Shown here one piece after another: positions 34,781-40,196 of a stretch of DNA of 64,000 nt (its first letter is position 1; each line of letters begins with the position of its first letter). The position numbers were made by a program, and so were the translations under genes. Source of the stretch: Rheinheimera hassiensis (GTDB lineage: Bacteria; Pseudomonadota; Gammaproteobacteria; Enterobacterales; Alteromonadaceae). The DNA is taken from assembly GCF_022436675.1 (NCBI RefSeq), contig NZ_JAKUJZ010000001.1, forward strand, positions 434,001 through 498,000, in the 5' to 3' direction. A model generated the notes under the pieces. The model made no database searches and had not been told where the DNA came from. It saw only the letters and a program-made list of their open reading frames with translations.

Positions 34781-37573
34781 ATGGTTTCTATCTCCGGCAC
34801 TCCACTGATCCTGGTCGATGGCTCGTCTTATTTGTTCCGTGCTTATCATTCTCCACCACATTTAACTAATTCCCGTGGCGAAGCTACCGGCGCTATTTAT
34901 GGCGTGGTTAACATGCTGAAAAGTTTACTACGCCAGTATCAGCCAACACAGATGGCCGTAATATTTGATGCCAAAGGCCCCACTTTTCGTAACGAAATGT
35001 ACAATGAATACAAAGCCAACCGACCTCCGATGCCAGATGACCTGCGCAGCCAGATCGAGCCGTTACACCGCATTATAGAAGCCATGGGATTGCCACTGTT
35101 ATGTGTCAGTGGTGTAGAAGCTGACGATGTTATTGGTACGCTGGCCCGGCAAGCCAGCGCTCAAGGCCGCCATACGCTGATTTCTACAGGCGATAAAGAT
35201 ATGGCACAGCTGGTAGATGAACATGTCACGTTAATTAATACTATGACCAACACCCTGCTCGACCCTCAAGGTGTTGCAGACAAATTTGGCGTCGGCCCTG
35301 ATCTGATTATTGATTATCTGGCGCTGATGGGCGACAAAGTAGACAACATTCCAGGTTTGCCCGGTGTGGGCGAAAAAACCGCAGCGGCATTATTGCAGGG
35401 GCTGGGCTCTATTGCGCAGATTTATCAGCAGTTAGATAAGGTGCCAACACTGAGTTTTCGCGGCGCTAAAACCATGGTGGCAAAGCTGGAAGAGTTTCGT
35501 ACCCAGTTGGAGTTATCCTATCAGCTGGCAACGATAAAAACCGACGTTGAACTGCCTTATCAGCTAACAGACTTAATGATTAAAACAGCAGACAATACGC
35601 AGTTAGCCGAGCTATATAAAGAGTGCGAATTTCGCCGCTGGTTAAGTGAAGTATTAAGTAATGAACCGGCAGTAGCCAAGCCACAAACCGGCGAAGCACA
35701 AGCGGATATGTTTGCCAGCAGCGATGATACTGACAACACAACGAAAGCAGTTAGCACCGTGCCCGATAACTACCTTACTGTACTGGATGAAGCAGCTTTT
35801 AATAGTATGCTGCAGCAGTTGCACCGCTGCGAACTGGTCGCTTTTGATACCGAAACCACCAGCCTGGATTATATGCAGGCTGAGCTGGTTGGGTTGTCTG
35901 TCGCCACCGCAGCAGGCGAAGCCTGGTATGTGCCGGTAGCGCATGATTATATCGGTGCGCCAGAGCAATTAAACCGCGACTGGGTACTGGCACAGCTTAA
36001 ACCCTGGTTGGAAGATAACAGCAAAGCAAAGGTAGGCCAAAACCTGAAGTATGATCAAAGCGTACTGGCACGCTACGACATCACATTAAAAGGTGTGTGC
36101 TTCGATACGATGCTGGAATCCTATGTGCTGAACTCAGTGGCCTCGCGCCATGATATGGATAGCCTTGCACTGAAGTATTTAGGCCGTAAAACCATCAGCT
36201 TTGAAGACATTGCCGGTAAAGGCGCTAAACAGCTGACGTTTAATCAGGTAGAACTGGAAAAAGCAGCCCGGTATGCCGCCGAAGATGCCGATGTTACTCT
36301 GCAACTGCACCAGACACTTTGGCCGCAGCTACAGCAGGATGCCGGCTTGGTTACCGTGTTGCAGGATATTGAAATACCGCTGGTAGATATTTTGTCGCGG
36401 ATAGAACGCCATGGCGTACTGATAGACAGCAAGTTGCTGGCGATACAAAGTGAGCAACTGGCCAGCCGTATTGCCGAACTGGAGCAACTGGCTTACGAGC
36501 AGGCAGGTAAACCGTTTAACCTGGCATCGCCTAAACAGTTGCAGGAAATTTTGTTTGAGCAGATGAAACTGCCGGTGCTGAAAAAAACCCCGACCGGCAC
36601 CCCCTCCACCGCCGAAGACGTGTTGGCAGAACTGGCACTGGAATATGAATTCCCCAAGCTGATTACCGAGCACCGCGGTTTAAGTAAACTTAAGTCCACT
36701 TATACTGACAAACTGCCGAAAATGCAGAACCCGCTGACAGGCAGGGTACATACCTCCTATCATCAGGCAGTGGCCGCAACCGGCCGTTTAAGTTCAACCG
36801 ATCCCAATCTGCAGAATATCCCTATTCGCACCGAAGAAGGCCGGCGTATTCGGCAGGCGTTTATTGCCCCTAAAGGTAAAAAGATCGTCGCGGTGGATTA
36901 CTCCCAGATTGAACTACGTATTATGGCCCATCTGTCACAGGATCAGGCGCTGCTGGACGCTTTTGCCCAGGGCCGCGATATCCACCGTGCTACAGCAGCA
37001 GAAGTTTTTGGCGTTAAACTGGACGATGTTACCTCAGATCAGCGCCGCAGCGCCAAAGCCGTTAACTTTGGCCTGATTTACGGCATGTCAGCATTTGGTT
37101 TAGCCAAACAGCTTGGCGTAAGCCGTTCAGAAGCACAGCAGTATGTTGACCGTTACTTTGAGCGCTTCCCCGGCGTACTTAACTATATGGAGCGTACCCG
37201 CAAGCAAGCGCATGAACAGGGTTATGTTGAAACCTTGTTTGGCAGGCGTTTATATCTGCCAGAGATCAATGCCCAGAATATGGCACGGCGCAAAGGCGCA
37301 GAGCGCGCAGCAATTAACGCTCCCATGCAGGGCACTGCTGCCGACATTATAAAAAAAGCCATGATAGTTGTAGATAACTGGCTGCAACAGCAAAAACAGC
37401 CCGCTGCTACCATGATTATGCAGGTGCACGATGAACTGGTGTTTGAAGTGGATGCCGATAAAGTCAGCGAGATAAAACAACAGTTAGTTGAGCTGATGGC
37501 AACGGCTGCAACATTGGATGTTCCGCTGCTGGCAGAAGCAGGAGACGGGGATAATTGGGATGAAGCACATTAA
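34781..37573 (+). CDS. polA: DNA polymerase I
   Basis: A 930-residue polymerase for Okazaki-fragment processing and repair. The 5'-3' exonuclease domain (about 1-290) has [26 protein letters not shown] and [12 protein letters not shown]. The 3'-5' exonuclease domain (about 330-520) keeps the proofreading motif [11 protein letters not shown]. The polymerase domain has motif [16 protein letters not shown], motif [20 protein letters not shown] and motif [12 protein letters not shown]. The start is ATG 34781 with AGGA about 11 bases upstream. It is followed by its terminator and then the spf RNA, the classic gammaproteobacterial order. Confidence 0.97.
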
Positions 37574-37645
37574 TGTTGAACTAACTACGCAGGCACCAGT
37601 CTGACGTTATAGTTAAGTTATTCATCTCTCCTGTTTACACTTTTT

Positions 37646-37673
37646 AGCCCCGCTACCAAGCGGGGCTTTTTTT
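37646..37673 (+). terminator. Rho-independent terminator of polA
   Basis: AGCCCCGC (37646-37653) pairs with GCGGGGCT (37660-37667), followed by seven T. It lies about 75 bp after the polA stop. Confidence 0.88.
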
Positions 37674-37767
37674 ATCTCAGGCCTTGTGTAAAAAAGTAAT
37701 TAAATTACCAAAAATAGTAAAAAGAGCAAACAAACAGCAATTTTTGTAGTTTTATTACAAAAAGCAC

Positions 37768-37795
37768 TTGCTTTATCAGGCTGGCTGGTTAAAAT
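37768..37795 (+). promoter_or_regulatory. spf (Spot 42) promoter
   Basis: TTGCTT (37768-37773) and TAAAAT (37790-37795) are 16 bp apart and end 7 bp before the conserved Spot 42 5' end. I did not see a CRP half-site pair (TGTGA-N6-TCACA) overlapping it. Confidence 0.65.
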
Positions 37796-37802
37796 TTGAC
37801 GT

Positions 37803-37911
37803 GTAGGGTACAGAGGTAAGATGTTCTATCTTTCAGTGCCAGAGCTTTAGGGCTCCAGCGAATGAAAGTAGGCTTATTTAGCCGCCCCACTGCTTGCAGT
37901 GGGGCGTTTTT
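37803..37911 (+). ncRNA. spf: Spot 42 regulatory RNA
   Basis: The first 34 nucleotides (37803-37836), starting GTAGGGTACAGAGGTAAG, are identical to E. coli Spot 42 as I recall it. The 3' end has the matching TTTAGCCGCCCC... terminator (11-bp stem 37883-37906, then nine T). The 109-nt length also matches. Spot 42 is an Hfq-dependent RNA that represses secondary-carbon and redox genes. Its position just after polA and before engB is the conserved one. The central part (about 37837-37875) differs from E. coli, so the target set may differ. Confidence 0.93.
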
Positions 37912-38033
37912 TTTTGCCTGAAAAACCCGCAGACAAGCGGCTATCTGGCGATAATATCAGCACAGCAAAACGGTTACTGAGTAACAAGGCACCAACTAAA
38001 ATGAAAATTTATTAGATTTTTTAGAGCAAATAC

Positions 38034-38061
38034 TTCAAACAATAAAAATTTGCTGTATAAT
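38034..38061 (+). promoter_or_regulatory. Promoter of the candidate small RNA
   Basis: A perfect -10 TATAAT (38056-38061) lies 16 bp after TTCAAA (38034-38039). The stretch upstream (about 38000-38030) is strongly A/T with tracts like an UP element. The predicted start is about 38068. Confidence 0.65.
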
Positions 38062-38067
38062 GAAGTT

Positions 38068-38153
38068 GTCTTAGCGATAAGACACCCTGTTGATTTGAAA
38101 TTATAGCTTCTCCCCGTTTGCTATGACCGACACTTTCGAGTGTCGGTTTTTTT
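38068..38153 (+). ncRNA. Candidate novel small RNA between spf and engB
   Basis: An ~86-nt transcript is predicted from a good promoter to a strong terminator with no ORF between. Hairpin 1 is TGTCTTA (38067-38073) and TAAGACA (38078-38084) closing a GCGA (GNRA) tetraloop. Hairpin 2 is ATAGC (38103-38107) and GCTAT (38120-38124) presenting the C-rich loop TTCTCCCCGTTT. Hairpin 3 is the terminator, ACCGACACT/AGTGTCGGT (38126-38147) with a TTCG loop and seven T. The terminator faces away from engB and so needs a plus-strand transcript. A C-rich loop could pair with Shine-Dalgarno sequences. I know of no named RNA at this place. Confidence 0.65.
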
Positions 38154-38164
38154 ATGCCTGCAGC

Positions 38165-38827
38165 TTACTGCGCGGCCGTCTCGGTATCTGTTGCTACGCC
38201 GTACCAGAGATCCAGCACCTGCTCCAGTTCTGGTAAGCCGAGTTTATTTAATGAACTAAATGCATGCACGGTGATATCACCCATAAATGCCAATGTCGCT
38301 TCACGCACTTCAAGCAAGGTTTTCTTTCTTGCTCCCGGCCCCAGTTTATCGGCTTTGGTTAGCAGAATAAGTACCGGCAGCTCACTGCCCACCGCCCAAT
38401 GGATAAGATCCTGATCTAAATCTTTTAACGGATGACGAATATCCATCAACACCACCAAACCTTTTAAACTGCTGCGCTTCATCAGGTATTCGGCAAGGGA
38501 CTTTTGCCACTTTTCTTTTACCGCCAGCGGCACCTTGGCAAAACCATAACCGGGTAAATCAATTAACCGGCGCTGTTCATCCAGACTGAAAGTATTAATC
38601 AGCTGGGTTCGGCCCGGCGTTTTACTGGTGCGGGCTAAACTATTTTGCCGCGTCAGCGTATTTAATGCGCTGGACTTACCGGCATTTGAGCGGCCGGCAA
38701 AGGCAACTTCAATGCCCTCATCTGCTGGTAATGCTTTGATATCAGGCGCACTGGTTAAAAAAGTAGCTTGCTGATAATTGATTTTTGACTTGTACACTGC
38801 CTTCTCCGGCGAATAATTTGATGCCAT
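38165..38827 (-). CDS. engB: Ribosome-biogenesis GTPase EngB (YihA/YsxC)
   Basis: A 220-residue essential GTPase required for 50S subunit assembly. The motifs are G1 [13 protein letters not shown]3 DLPGYGFA and G4 LTKADK. An N-terminal extension of about 25 residues precedes the G domain. It lies convergent to the spf region, as in enterobacteria and vibrios. The ATG is at 38825-38827. Confidence 0.95.
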
Positions 38828-38978
38828 TGTAGCGGATCTGGCGGATCGGCAGAAGCTTTTGCGCGCTGTATGGGATTTTACTTTGGGCAGTTTCGTGTAA
38901 AATAGGCATAAAAATTAAGGTTATTACTCTTGGTTGCCAGTATGCTGGCGGTTTAATGCGGACAGAGACGGATAAAAA

Positions 38979-39605
38979 ATGAAAAAACTTCTACTTCCAC
39001 TGACGCTGTTATTCGGTCTAATCGGAACAGCCCATGCATTTGACGGTGATGCTGAAGCAGGTAAAGCTAAATCGGCTACCTGTGCAGCCTGTCATGGTCC
39101 AGATGGCAATAGCCTGGTTGATATGTACCCGAAAATTGCCGGGCAACATGCACCTTATCTGTATAAGCAATTACGCCAATACAAACAAGGCATGGAAACC
39201 GGTGGCAAACAGGGCCGTAACAACAGCATTATGTTTGGCATGGTAGCGTCGCTGTCTGATCAGGATATGAAAGATCTGGCAGCTTATTTTGCTTCGCAAA
39301 AAATGAAGTCTGGCACTACACCGGAAAATGTTATTGCCCGCGGTGAAAAATTATACCGTGGCGGCGATGCTAACCGTGGTATCGCAGCCTGTATTGCCTG
39401 CCATGGCCCACGTGGTTCAGGCAGCAGCTTAGGTGGCTTCCCAAAAATATCGTTTCAAAATGCCACCTACCTGAAAACGACTCTGCAGGAATTCCGTAGC
39501 GGCCAGCGTGCTAATGATCTCAATGGCATGATGCAGGATATCGCGAAAAAATTAACTGATGATGATATAGAAGTATTGTCGCAGTATCTGGGTGGCTTGC
39601 ATTAA
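38979..39605 (+). CDS. Diheme cytochrome c4
   Basis: A 208-residue periplasmic cytochrome with a signal peptide (MKKLLLPLTLLFGLIGTAHA) and two tandem cytochrome c domains. The heme motifs are CAACHGPDG and CIACHGPRG; the Met ligands probably lie in NSIMFGM and NGMMQD. Cytochrome c4 feeds electrons to cbb3 or other oxidases. It sits divergent from engB, an arrangement common in Alteromonadales and pseudomonads, and has its own terminator. Confidence 0.93.
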   Translation: MKKLLLPLTLLFGLIGTAHAFDGDAEAGKAKSATCAACHGPDGNSLVDMYPKIAGQHAPYLYKQLRQYKQGMETGGKQGRNNSIMFGMVASLSDQDMKDLAAYFASQKMKSGTTPENVIARGEKLYRGGDANRGIAACIACHGPRGSGSSLGGFPKISFQNATYLKTTLQEFRSGQRANDLNGMMQDIAKKLTDDDIEVLSQYLGGLH

Positions 39606-39700: not shown

Positions 39701-39882
39701 GCTCTGTAGGAAAAGTACCCGTATTATAATTTCAGGGAACTTTTCTATTCTAGTGAATAACCCATAACACAATGAAAATAATAACTATATTTCAAATTTA
39801 AAACAATGCAGCGCTTTTTTTTGCAGCAATGTCTTGCCATATGAGCAGATAAGAGTAAATTACCACCTGTTACATTTTGTAA

Positions 39883-40173
39883 CTGAAAAAAACAGGGATT
39901 CGTCGCAAGGAAGGGGTTGTACCAGTACGTAAGTGCGCGGTGCCTTAATAAACACATCAGGATGATGTGCTGCGTGATTCACGCTCAGGGATGATTACGA
40001 AAGTATCAGGATGATCGTAAAGAATAAATAATTGGTACGGAAAGCCAGAATAACAAAGGGAACATACAGACAGGGCGTTGCAGCAACATCAGGATGATGA
40101 CAGCGAATGAGAGAAGTGTCCATTTGACACAAGCATATCCAGGGCGATAAGTGATCTTATCGCCTTTTCTTTT
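39883..40173 (+). ncRNA. CsrB/CsrC-type CsrA-sequestering RNA
   Basis: This long spacer carries about eight GGA motifs, several presented in hairpin loops. ATCAGGATGAT occurs exactly three times (39956, 40005 and 40088). The clearest hairpin is CACATC-AGGAT-GATGTG (39953-39969). CAGGGATG, AAGGAAGG, ACGGAAA and AGGGAAC add further sites. It ends in a 9-bp terminator stem (GGCGATAAG/CTTATCGCC, 40143-40164) with a T-rich tail, much like the end of E. coli csrC. Position between engB and yihI also matches csrC. Such RNAs titrate CsrA (RsmA). The 5' end is uncertain: it may start near 39883 or as early as 39737. Confidence 0.82.
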
Positions 40174-40196
40174 ATTTTGAATTCAGCAATAGCCCT

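Follow-up and report, generated by a model that had tools for sequence, protein, structure and literature searches.

We examined the interval between Spot 42 (spf) and engB in a 64,000-nucleotide stretch of the Rheinheimera hassiensis genome, hereafter the window, whose coordinates are used throughout. Positions 38020-38153 probably constitute an independent gene with a promoter, a predicted sRNA of ~87 nt, and a terminator facing engB. The features of the locus are:

37794-37913, plus strand: Spot 42 (spf), the upstream neighbour (RF00021, 60.7 bits, E 3.5e-11, gathering score 80)
38020-38039, plus strand: palindromic promoter box TTTAGAGCAAATACTTCAAA, a probable transcription-factor operator overlapping the -35 region
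38056-38061, plus strand: -10 hexamer TATAAT, called from sequence and conservation
38067-38153, plus strand: predicted sRNA transcript of ~87 nt, its 5' end placed from the -10 hexamer and its 3' end from the terminator
38068-38083, plus strand: hairpin 1, GTCTTAGCGATAAGAC, stem GUCUUA/UAAGAC, with a loop that varies among relatives
38081-38096, plus strand: candidate seed 1, the linker GACACCCUGUUGAUUU, near-invariant and unpaired starting at 38085
38102-38125, plus strand: hairpin 2, stem UAUAGC/GCUAUG, with a 12-base C-rich loop TTCTCCCCGTTT (fold and alignment)
38108-38116, plus strand: candidate seed 2, the loop sequence UUCUCCCCG, near-invariant and complementary to GGGGGAGA, the Shine-Dalgarno sequence of DUF1302 genes
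38125-38153, plus strand: rho-independent terminator, GACCGACACTTTCGAGTGTCGG followed by seven T (terminator scan and covarying pairs)
38165-38827, minus strand: engB (yihA), the convergent neighbour (ORF)

The ORF at 38165-38827, which we take to be engB (yihA), served as the EngB query.

In the predicted RNA, the 5' hairpin is followed by 17 unpaired nucleotides (the linker), then by a second hairpin whose loop is C-rich and 12 nt long, and finally by the terminator; the two near-invariant unpaired segments are the linker and the loop, UUCUCCCC. A sequence-only reading had proposed an undescribed small RNA with three hairpins at this position. We confirmed the letters of its TATAAT box, hairpins and terminator, and 38067-38153 folds as it described, with a minimum free energy of -25.1 kcal/mol (z -4.39) that none of 200 shuffles equalled; the 120-nt span 38034-38153 gives z -4.48. 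The three frames of 38067-38153 hold no noteworthy ORF, as had also been claimed, and the terminator hairpin read on the minus strand has no T run after it, which agrees with the view that it faces engB and is not engB's own. The GNRA loop ascribed to hairpin 1 does occur in the window, but relatives have other loops in its place, and the proposed -35 element TTCAAA (38034-38039) proved to be the right half of the conserved palindrome at 38020-38039. The same reading had passed over this operator-like palindrome, along with the linker seed that is the source of the two stronger target predictions. The genome carries a single full-length copy of the element. An intergenic gene without an ORF, with its own promoter (recognised through conservation) and a rho-independent terminator, has the layout of a trans-acting base-pairing sRNA, and the T7 tail is compatible with binding by Hfq or ProQ.

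Spot 42 ends ~150 nt upstream on the same strand, and the hairpins might merely be a terminator region or the readthrough end of that RNA. We regard this as highly improbable, given that Spot 42 possesses a strong terminator of its own, that the second element has its own -10, a conserved box and near-invariant unpaired sequence, and that some genomes hold copies without polA or engB within 1.5 kb on each side. Because Spot 42 ends in its own terminator (37883-37913), the downstream terminator serves no other plus-strand gene, as originally proposed.

A search of the whole window with Rfam 15 returned only a tRNA at the gathering score and no family at the element, where the best plus-strand sub-threshold matches are RF02451 (19.3 bits, gathering score 60) and RF02631 (18.8 bits, gathering score 52); this miss weighs little by itself, as the Spot 42 gene of the window likewise falls short of its gathering score. 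That gene is nonetheless a clear Spot 42, which default annotation would miss here. Upstream of it lies a palindrome, TGTAGTTTTATTACA (37745-37759), which we take to resemble a HexR site and which is near-unchanged in the 40 sequences displayed of 45 distinct upstream sequences. One gene beyond engB, a CsrB-like RNA at 39884-40176 scores 28.3 bits against a gathering score of 71 (E 5.1e-6), with nine GGA motifs around it in 39720-40170.

We then surveyed the distribution of the element. By blastn, all 31 genomes of the genus carry it and none of 29 from outside the genus does, and the 120-nt element is 100% identical in one genome (G024). Both polA and engB adjoin it in 30 of the 30 genus loci returned, one of the 31 genomes (G019) having yielded no locus. 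Across these 30 loci, which were not selected via the seed, ACACCCTGTT and TAGCTTCTCCC are identical, and the spacers, hairpin loops and engB-side flank are variable. The promoter box and the C-rich loop, whose absence from close relatives would have counted against the sequence-only reading by its own account, are conserved in relatives. An exact-pattern scan of GTDB contigs returned 48 loci, 45 of them the sRNA (in Rheinheimera, Arsukibacterium, Alishewanella and MAGs), each with polA and/or engB within the stretch examined; the pattern lies inside seed 1, so that the invariance of seed 1 in the 48 loci is by construction. Among the remaining three, L072 is by sequence the pectate-lyase site described below, and L092 and L111 were rejected as chance matches inside other genes.

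A covariance-model search of related genomes, a check that the sequence-only reading had named, found relatives in the family of the window and beyond. Model R1 matched 47 of 196 genomes of that family at E<=0.1, 8 of the 47 belonging to the genus of the window. In the distant-genus loci that we read, the core is mostly kept between polA and engB, as TAGCYTCTCCCC or TAGCTTYCCCC and CCTGTTG or near forms; the promoter box was missing, by the expression used, in four g39 loci (L125, L126, L171, L207). Further weak R1 matches are L130 and L143-L146, and the genome of L144 was met again as L179. Eleven R1 matches in family f21 (E 0.003-0.064), which is presumably Vibrio-like, were discarded: they lie upstream of polA and carry what we take to be a RyhB-type core. 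Match L142 (f12) has the same core and was likewise set aside, and L127 (R1) and L229 (R2), located away from polA and engB, were taken as chance.

An EngB survey sampled 29 other genera with one genome each and added three further genomes; EngB was matched in 30 of these 32. A simple expression detected the core in 6 of the 30 EngB loci (two in the same family, three in family f15 and one in f6), and a seventh, L192 (f20), was spotted by eye. Model R2 was built solely from the family of the window, and five other-family rows were reserved as a test set by removing them from alignment A2 (36 rows), leaving A3. R2 detects the loci of f15 and f6 at E 0.002-0.006 in a search space of 125 kb, where the best match judged unrelated has E 0.056. 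Of the test rows, L131, L179, L188 and L193 fall in this range, L193 being aligned with its hairpin-2 part deleted, and the sRNA place of L192 reached E 1.9 only. Across 394 genomes of the order, R2 matched 18 at E<=0.01, 17 of them within the family of the window. Recognisable relatives exist in other genera, and at least two other families probably have members as well; the best reading of these sequences is an sRNA family of Rheinheimera, Alishewanella, Arsukibacterium and other genera of the same family.

Covariation was assessed in alignment A1, which retains 40 distinct rows of 78 loci once duplicates and rows that do not match the core expression are removed. Paired cells amount to 92.5%, and changes on both sides occur in 44 cells versus 19.4 in shuffles. 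The covariation score is 0.167; shuffled versions give 0.090, with 0 of 500 reaching the real score, and slid versions 0.080 or less. Two of the five covariation measures are not clearly above shuffles; pairs changed on both sides number 6 versus 5.0 in shuffles (35 of 500), and pair types 13 versus 13.6. Hairpin 1 is paired in 98.3% of cells with two of its six pairs varying on both sides, as do four of the eight terminator pairs. Hairpin 2 is nearly unvarying, so covariation is uninformative for it. In the wide alignment A3 the score is 0.182 versus 0.189 for one slid version, a shortfall that we put down to shifted terminator columns. Synteny, conservation and covariation, together with the lack of an Rfam match at threshold, support the proposal of an undescribed small RNA.

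R2 also revealed two sRNA copies in seven genomes (G031, G106, G167, G180, G193, G267 and G352). In G352 and G167 one of the copies is found ~160 nt 3' of polA and the second next to engB, G267 (L233) has a copy ~150 nt 3' of polA, and G193 (L235) has one on the polA side, ~1.1 kb away. L231, L232, L233 and L235 are sRNA paralogues 3' of polA, the normal place of Spot 42. Spot 42 stays below the gathering score in these four loci and in L222 and L226, which says little since it is also missed in the window, in L174 and in L192; in the latter two the 5' part of Spot 42 is seen by expression. Downstream of polA in L231 and L235, the stretches contain no RF00021 match at E<=0.01, and the Spot 42 5' sequence, sought with loose criteria, did not turn up in any of 14 loci. 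In the locus stretches searched, a replacement of Spot 42 by the polA-linked copy is thus a lead.

A simple promoter scan of 37000-39500 gave two promoter-like sites versus a shuffle mean of 4.5. Because this consensus-based scan does no better than shuffles, the promoter call rests on conservation. Of the 20 columns of the box at 38020-38039, 14 show no variation among 44 distinct box-plus-downstream sequences, rows for which <=3 mismatches and GACACCCTGTT downstream were required. Six distant-genus loci (L219-L222, L226, L227; three with engB in the stretch examined) have two boxes at <=3 mismatches. Relative to where the model match begins, these lie at -42 to -44 and at -20 to -22; the latter box runs into the -10, and this placement suggests that the bound factor would be a repressor.

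We also searched for complements of the two conserved unpaired segments. The complement of seed 1, AAATCAACAGGGTG, has an exact second copy outside the sRNA locus in 10 of the 31 genomes. Eight of these ten sites were aligned; all stand before a pectate-lyase gene (PF00544 by Pfam, G000 protein), ~60-85 nt upstream of the start codon. Pairing of this 5' UTR with seed 1 was computed for two genomes, giving -27.9 and -33.9 kcal/mol, and none of 49 window genes is as strong. The site probably lies near the mRNA 5' end, with a TATAAA-like -10 just upstream. We considered a switch in which CACCC, released by the sRNA, closes the Shine-Dalgarno sequence of pectate lyase, but rejected it since the UTR has no significant fold (z 0.67, no better than shuffles).

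The second candidate target of seed 1 is fadL (PF03349), present in 28 of the 31 genomes. Its start region has TTCAACAGGGTATG in seven genomes and TTCAACAGGTG in six (the clade of the window), and contains CAACAAGGTGT in three. In 21 of the 28 genomes, no more than 1 of 100 shuffled seeds pairs with it better than seed 1 does, and the energy is <=-14 kcal/mol in 17 of the 28. Pairing fails in seven (G007, with 9/100; G001, G006, G008, G010, G026 and G028), in all of which the seed is intact.

For seed 2, the start region of a DUF1302 gene (PF06980) carries GGGGGAGA in five of five genomes, one of them from another genus. Between -35 and +15, its pairing energies are -14.6 to -18.1 kcal/mol in all five, and 0-1 of 49 window genes attain them; with the wider span -200 to +15, 0-6 of the 49 do so. 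These 49 genes are a small background set with mechanically assigned start codons. The C-rich loop had been put forward as an anti-Shine-Dalgarno seed, and DUF1302 provides one conserved in silico candidate for it, but the most conserved unpaired stretch of the RNA is the linker and not the loop alone. Further upstream in the DUF1302 UTR, AAATCAACAG is invariant in the five genomes; its energy with seed 1 is unexceptional (5-18 of 49 window genes reach it) and was not counted. The loop match GGGGAGAAG stands no more than 12 nt from an ATG at nine places in seven genomes; these were rejected because none starts a frame of more than 25 codons; six of the nine fall within a long open frame on one strand, and L238, L239 and L241 lie outside such frames. 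At about position 1500 of these three loci, thus in three of the seven genomes and in similar surroundings, stands GGGGAGAAGGCTCAATG, complementary to the C-rich loop; no long frame overlaps it and only short frames follow (21, 25 and 15 codons).

In silico, the RNA therefore combines a conserved unpaired seed with complementarity to the start regions of conserved mRNAs, as a base-pairing sRNA would. Part of each start-region match is expected from the Shine-Dalgarno sequence alone. In another explanation, the sRNA is real but does not target the named mRNAs, the matches are Shine-Dalgarno-like coincidences or shared DNA elements, and the RNA acts on other mRNAs or on a protein. Both CCCUGUU of seed 1 and CUCCCC of seed 2 are near anti-Shine-Dalgarno, and CAACAGGGT is common within 20 nt of ATG (126 rows in seven genomes versus 29 for the reversed control), with only four of ~70 places inspected judged likely gene starts. 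Likewise, AAATCAACAG before DUF1302 sits within the inverted repeat TAAATCAACAGATTTA and may be something else. These points have to be weighed against the fadL match, which continues upstream of the Shine-Dalgarno sequence (TCAACA) and survives with a bulge or mismatch in divergent species, and against the pectate-lyase match, which blastn extends to 21-27 nt at 92-100% identity in 8 of the 31 genomes within an otherwise variable UTR. The promoter box shared by fadL, DUF1302 and the sRNA, described next, also speaks for true targets, and we consider the coincidence explanation unlikely. As a separate observation, CAACAGGGT lies just before the start codons of a TonB-dependent receptor (L310) and a DctP-type binding protein (L311); the two might weakly be suggested as further targets, seen in this genome only as far as examined.

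We scanned five genomes for the promoter box with the pattern TTAGAGYNNRTACTYTAA and <=1 mismatch. The 17 rows obtained represent 14 distinct places, compared with 2 matches for the reversed control pattern: the sRNA in five of five genomes, the DUF1302 gene in five of five, fadL in three of five, and a pdhR-like gene once. The DUF1302-type gene with the box stands downstream of a pepN-like gene (Pfam on two of the five); the names pepN and pdhR are our presumptive assignments. The boxes at fadL and pdhR are each flanked by divergent genes, of which the opposite one may be the gene served. In 24 of the 28 aligned fadL loci, a box-like palindrome, its left side degenerate in some, has beside it a sequence within 2 mismatches of GGTCTGACC, which we take to resemble a FadR site. 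With an 18-bp palindrome common to the sRNA, fadL and DUF1302 promoters, one factor probably controls the RNA and two of its targets; the literature offered no usable name for this palindrome. The pdhR-like instance (L346, about position 1500, one genome) has the box TTCGAGTTTATACTCTAA before a GntR gene, followed by an aceE-like frame. Elsewhere in the R. hassiensis genome (L117, 1480-1720), a box-like palindrome in a ruvB-ybgC-like interval is followed by a plus-strand terminator-like sequence, possibly marking another sRNA controlled by that factor.

Gene structure, conservation, box sharing and complementarity are computational observations; transcription, Hfq involvement and the direction of regulation are what we infer from them. 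Together they make it likely, in our judgement, that the element encodes a trans-acting base-pairing sRNA with two seeds that limits carbon uptake and is co-regulated with some of its targets by one factor. The linker ACCCUGUUGAUUU and the loop would act as the two seeds. Most likely they would work by occluding ribosome-binding sites, the linker that of fadL and the loop that of DUF1302; the linker would also bind the pectate-lyase 5' UTR. Pairing would lower the translation or stability of the targets, probably with Hfq. A single factor on the shared palindrome, which covers the -35 at the sRNA, would control the RNA and two targets in a feed-forward arrangement, so that either the RNA is made alongside its targets to damp them or the factor acts at two levels. 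In short, the sequences predict an RNA that turns down genes for fat and plant-sugar uptake, and they outline a testable circuit for limiting fatty-acid and pectin use in Rheinheimera and relatives, which degrade polysaccharides and lipids. We also entertain, tentatively and as something that more probably does not hold, a broader scenario: the RNA would belong to an sRNA family of ancient origin, found in marine and freshwater gammaproteobacteria and not related to the adjoining Spot 42, and be wired with fadL, DUF1302 and sometimes pdhR under one palindrome-binding factor, repressing two of them; in several genera it would have been duplicated into the Spot 42 place behind polA, where it would sort carbon sources as Spot 42 does in enterobacteria.

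Little was found in the literature on riboregulation in Rheinheimera and relatives: among publications on small RNAs of Rheinheimera and Alishewanella, and on sRNA or Spot 42 in Pseudoalteromonas and Colwellia, no title or abstract opening describes this RNA, subscription journals being mostly outside that scope. The closest known RNA by position is VSsrna24 of Aliivibrio salmonicida, located 262 nt downstream of spf and before engB/yihA; its report describes an RNA of ~60 nt that is limited to Vibrionaceae, has its own promoter and is repressed by glucose (PMC3295665). A 2026 paper also names it among differentially expressed sRNAs (PMC13250501).

The two RNAs share the spf-engB/yihA interval, their own promoter and small size, and the Vibrio-like locus L210 shows a small hairpin with the C-rich loop TATTTCTCTCCC before the terminator. 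L210 stands for VSsrna24 by our own assignment, its genome being presumably Vibrio. The size of ~60 nt differs from the ~87 nt here, as does the described restriction to Vibrionaceae, and the linker seed is absent as far as L210 shows. R2 at E<=10 has no match in L210, nor in the other Vibrio-like loci L186, L202 and L211-L215. Orthology of the two is doubtful.

VcdRP of Vibrio cholerae was rejected as a positional counterpart, as it lies between vc2278 and vc2279, not at spf; it also encodes a 29-aa protein (PMC8672173). VcdR resembles our RNA in that a conserved run of four C near its 3' end pairs with the start regions of carbon-uptake mRNAs, but it has a CRP operator and PTS gene targets, whereas the palindrome here is a different one (PMC8672173). 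Of the small ORF (vcdP) and CCCC seed that define VcdRP, only the CCCC loop is found. The resemblance to CsrB/CsrC is one of place, E. coli CsrC sitting in this chromosomal neighbourhood (PMC3295665); those RNAs have repeated GGA in their loops, in contrast to 0 GGA in 38067-38153, and the element does not belong with them. Spot 42 shares the locus and the carbon-metabolism theme, but it differs in sequence and structure, is separately present upstream, and RF00021 has no match at 38034-38153 even at E<=5. Our best reading of these comparisons is a new sRNA family, whose homology to VSsrna24 is doubtful, and the polA-engB interval would then be one that repeatedly hosts carbon-related sRNAs in different families.
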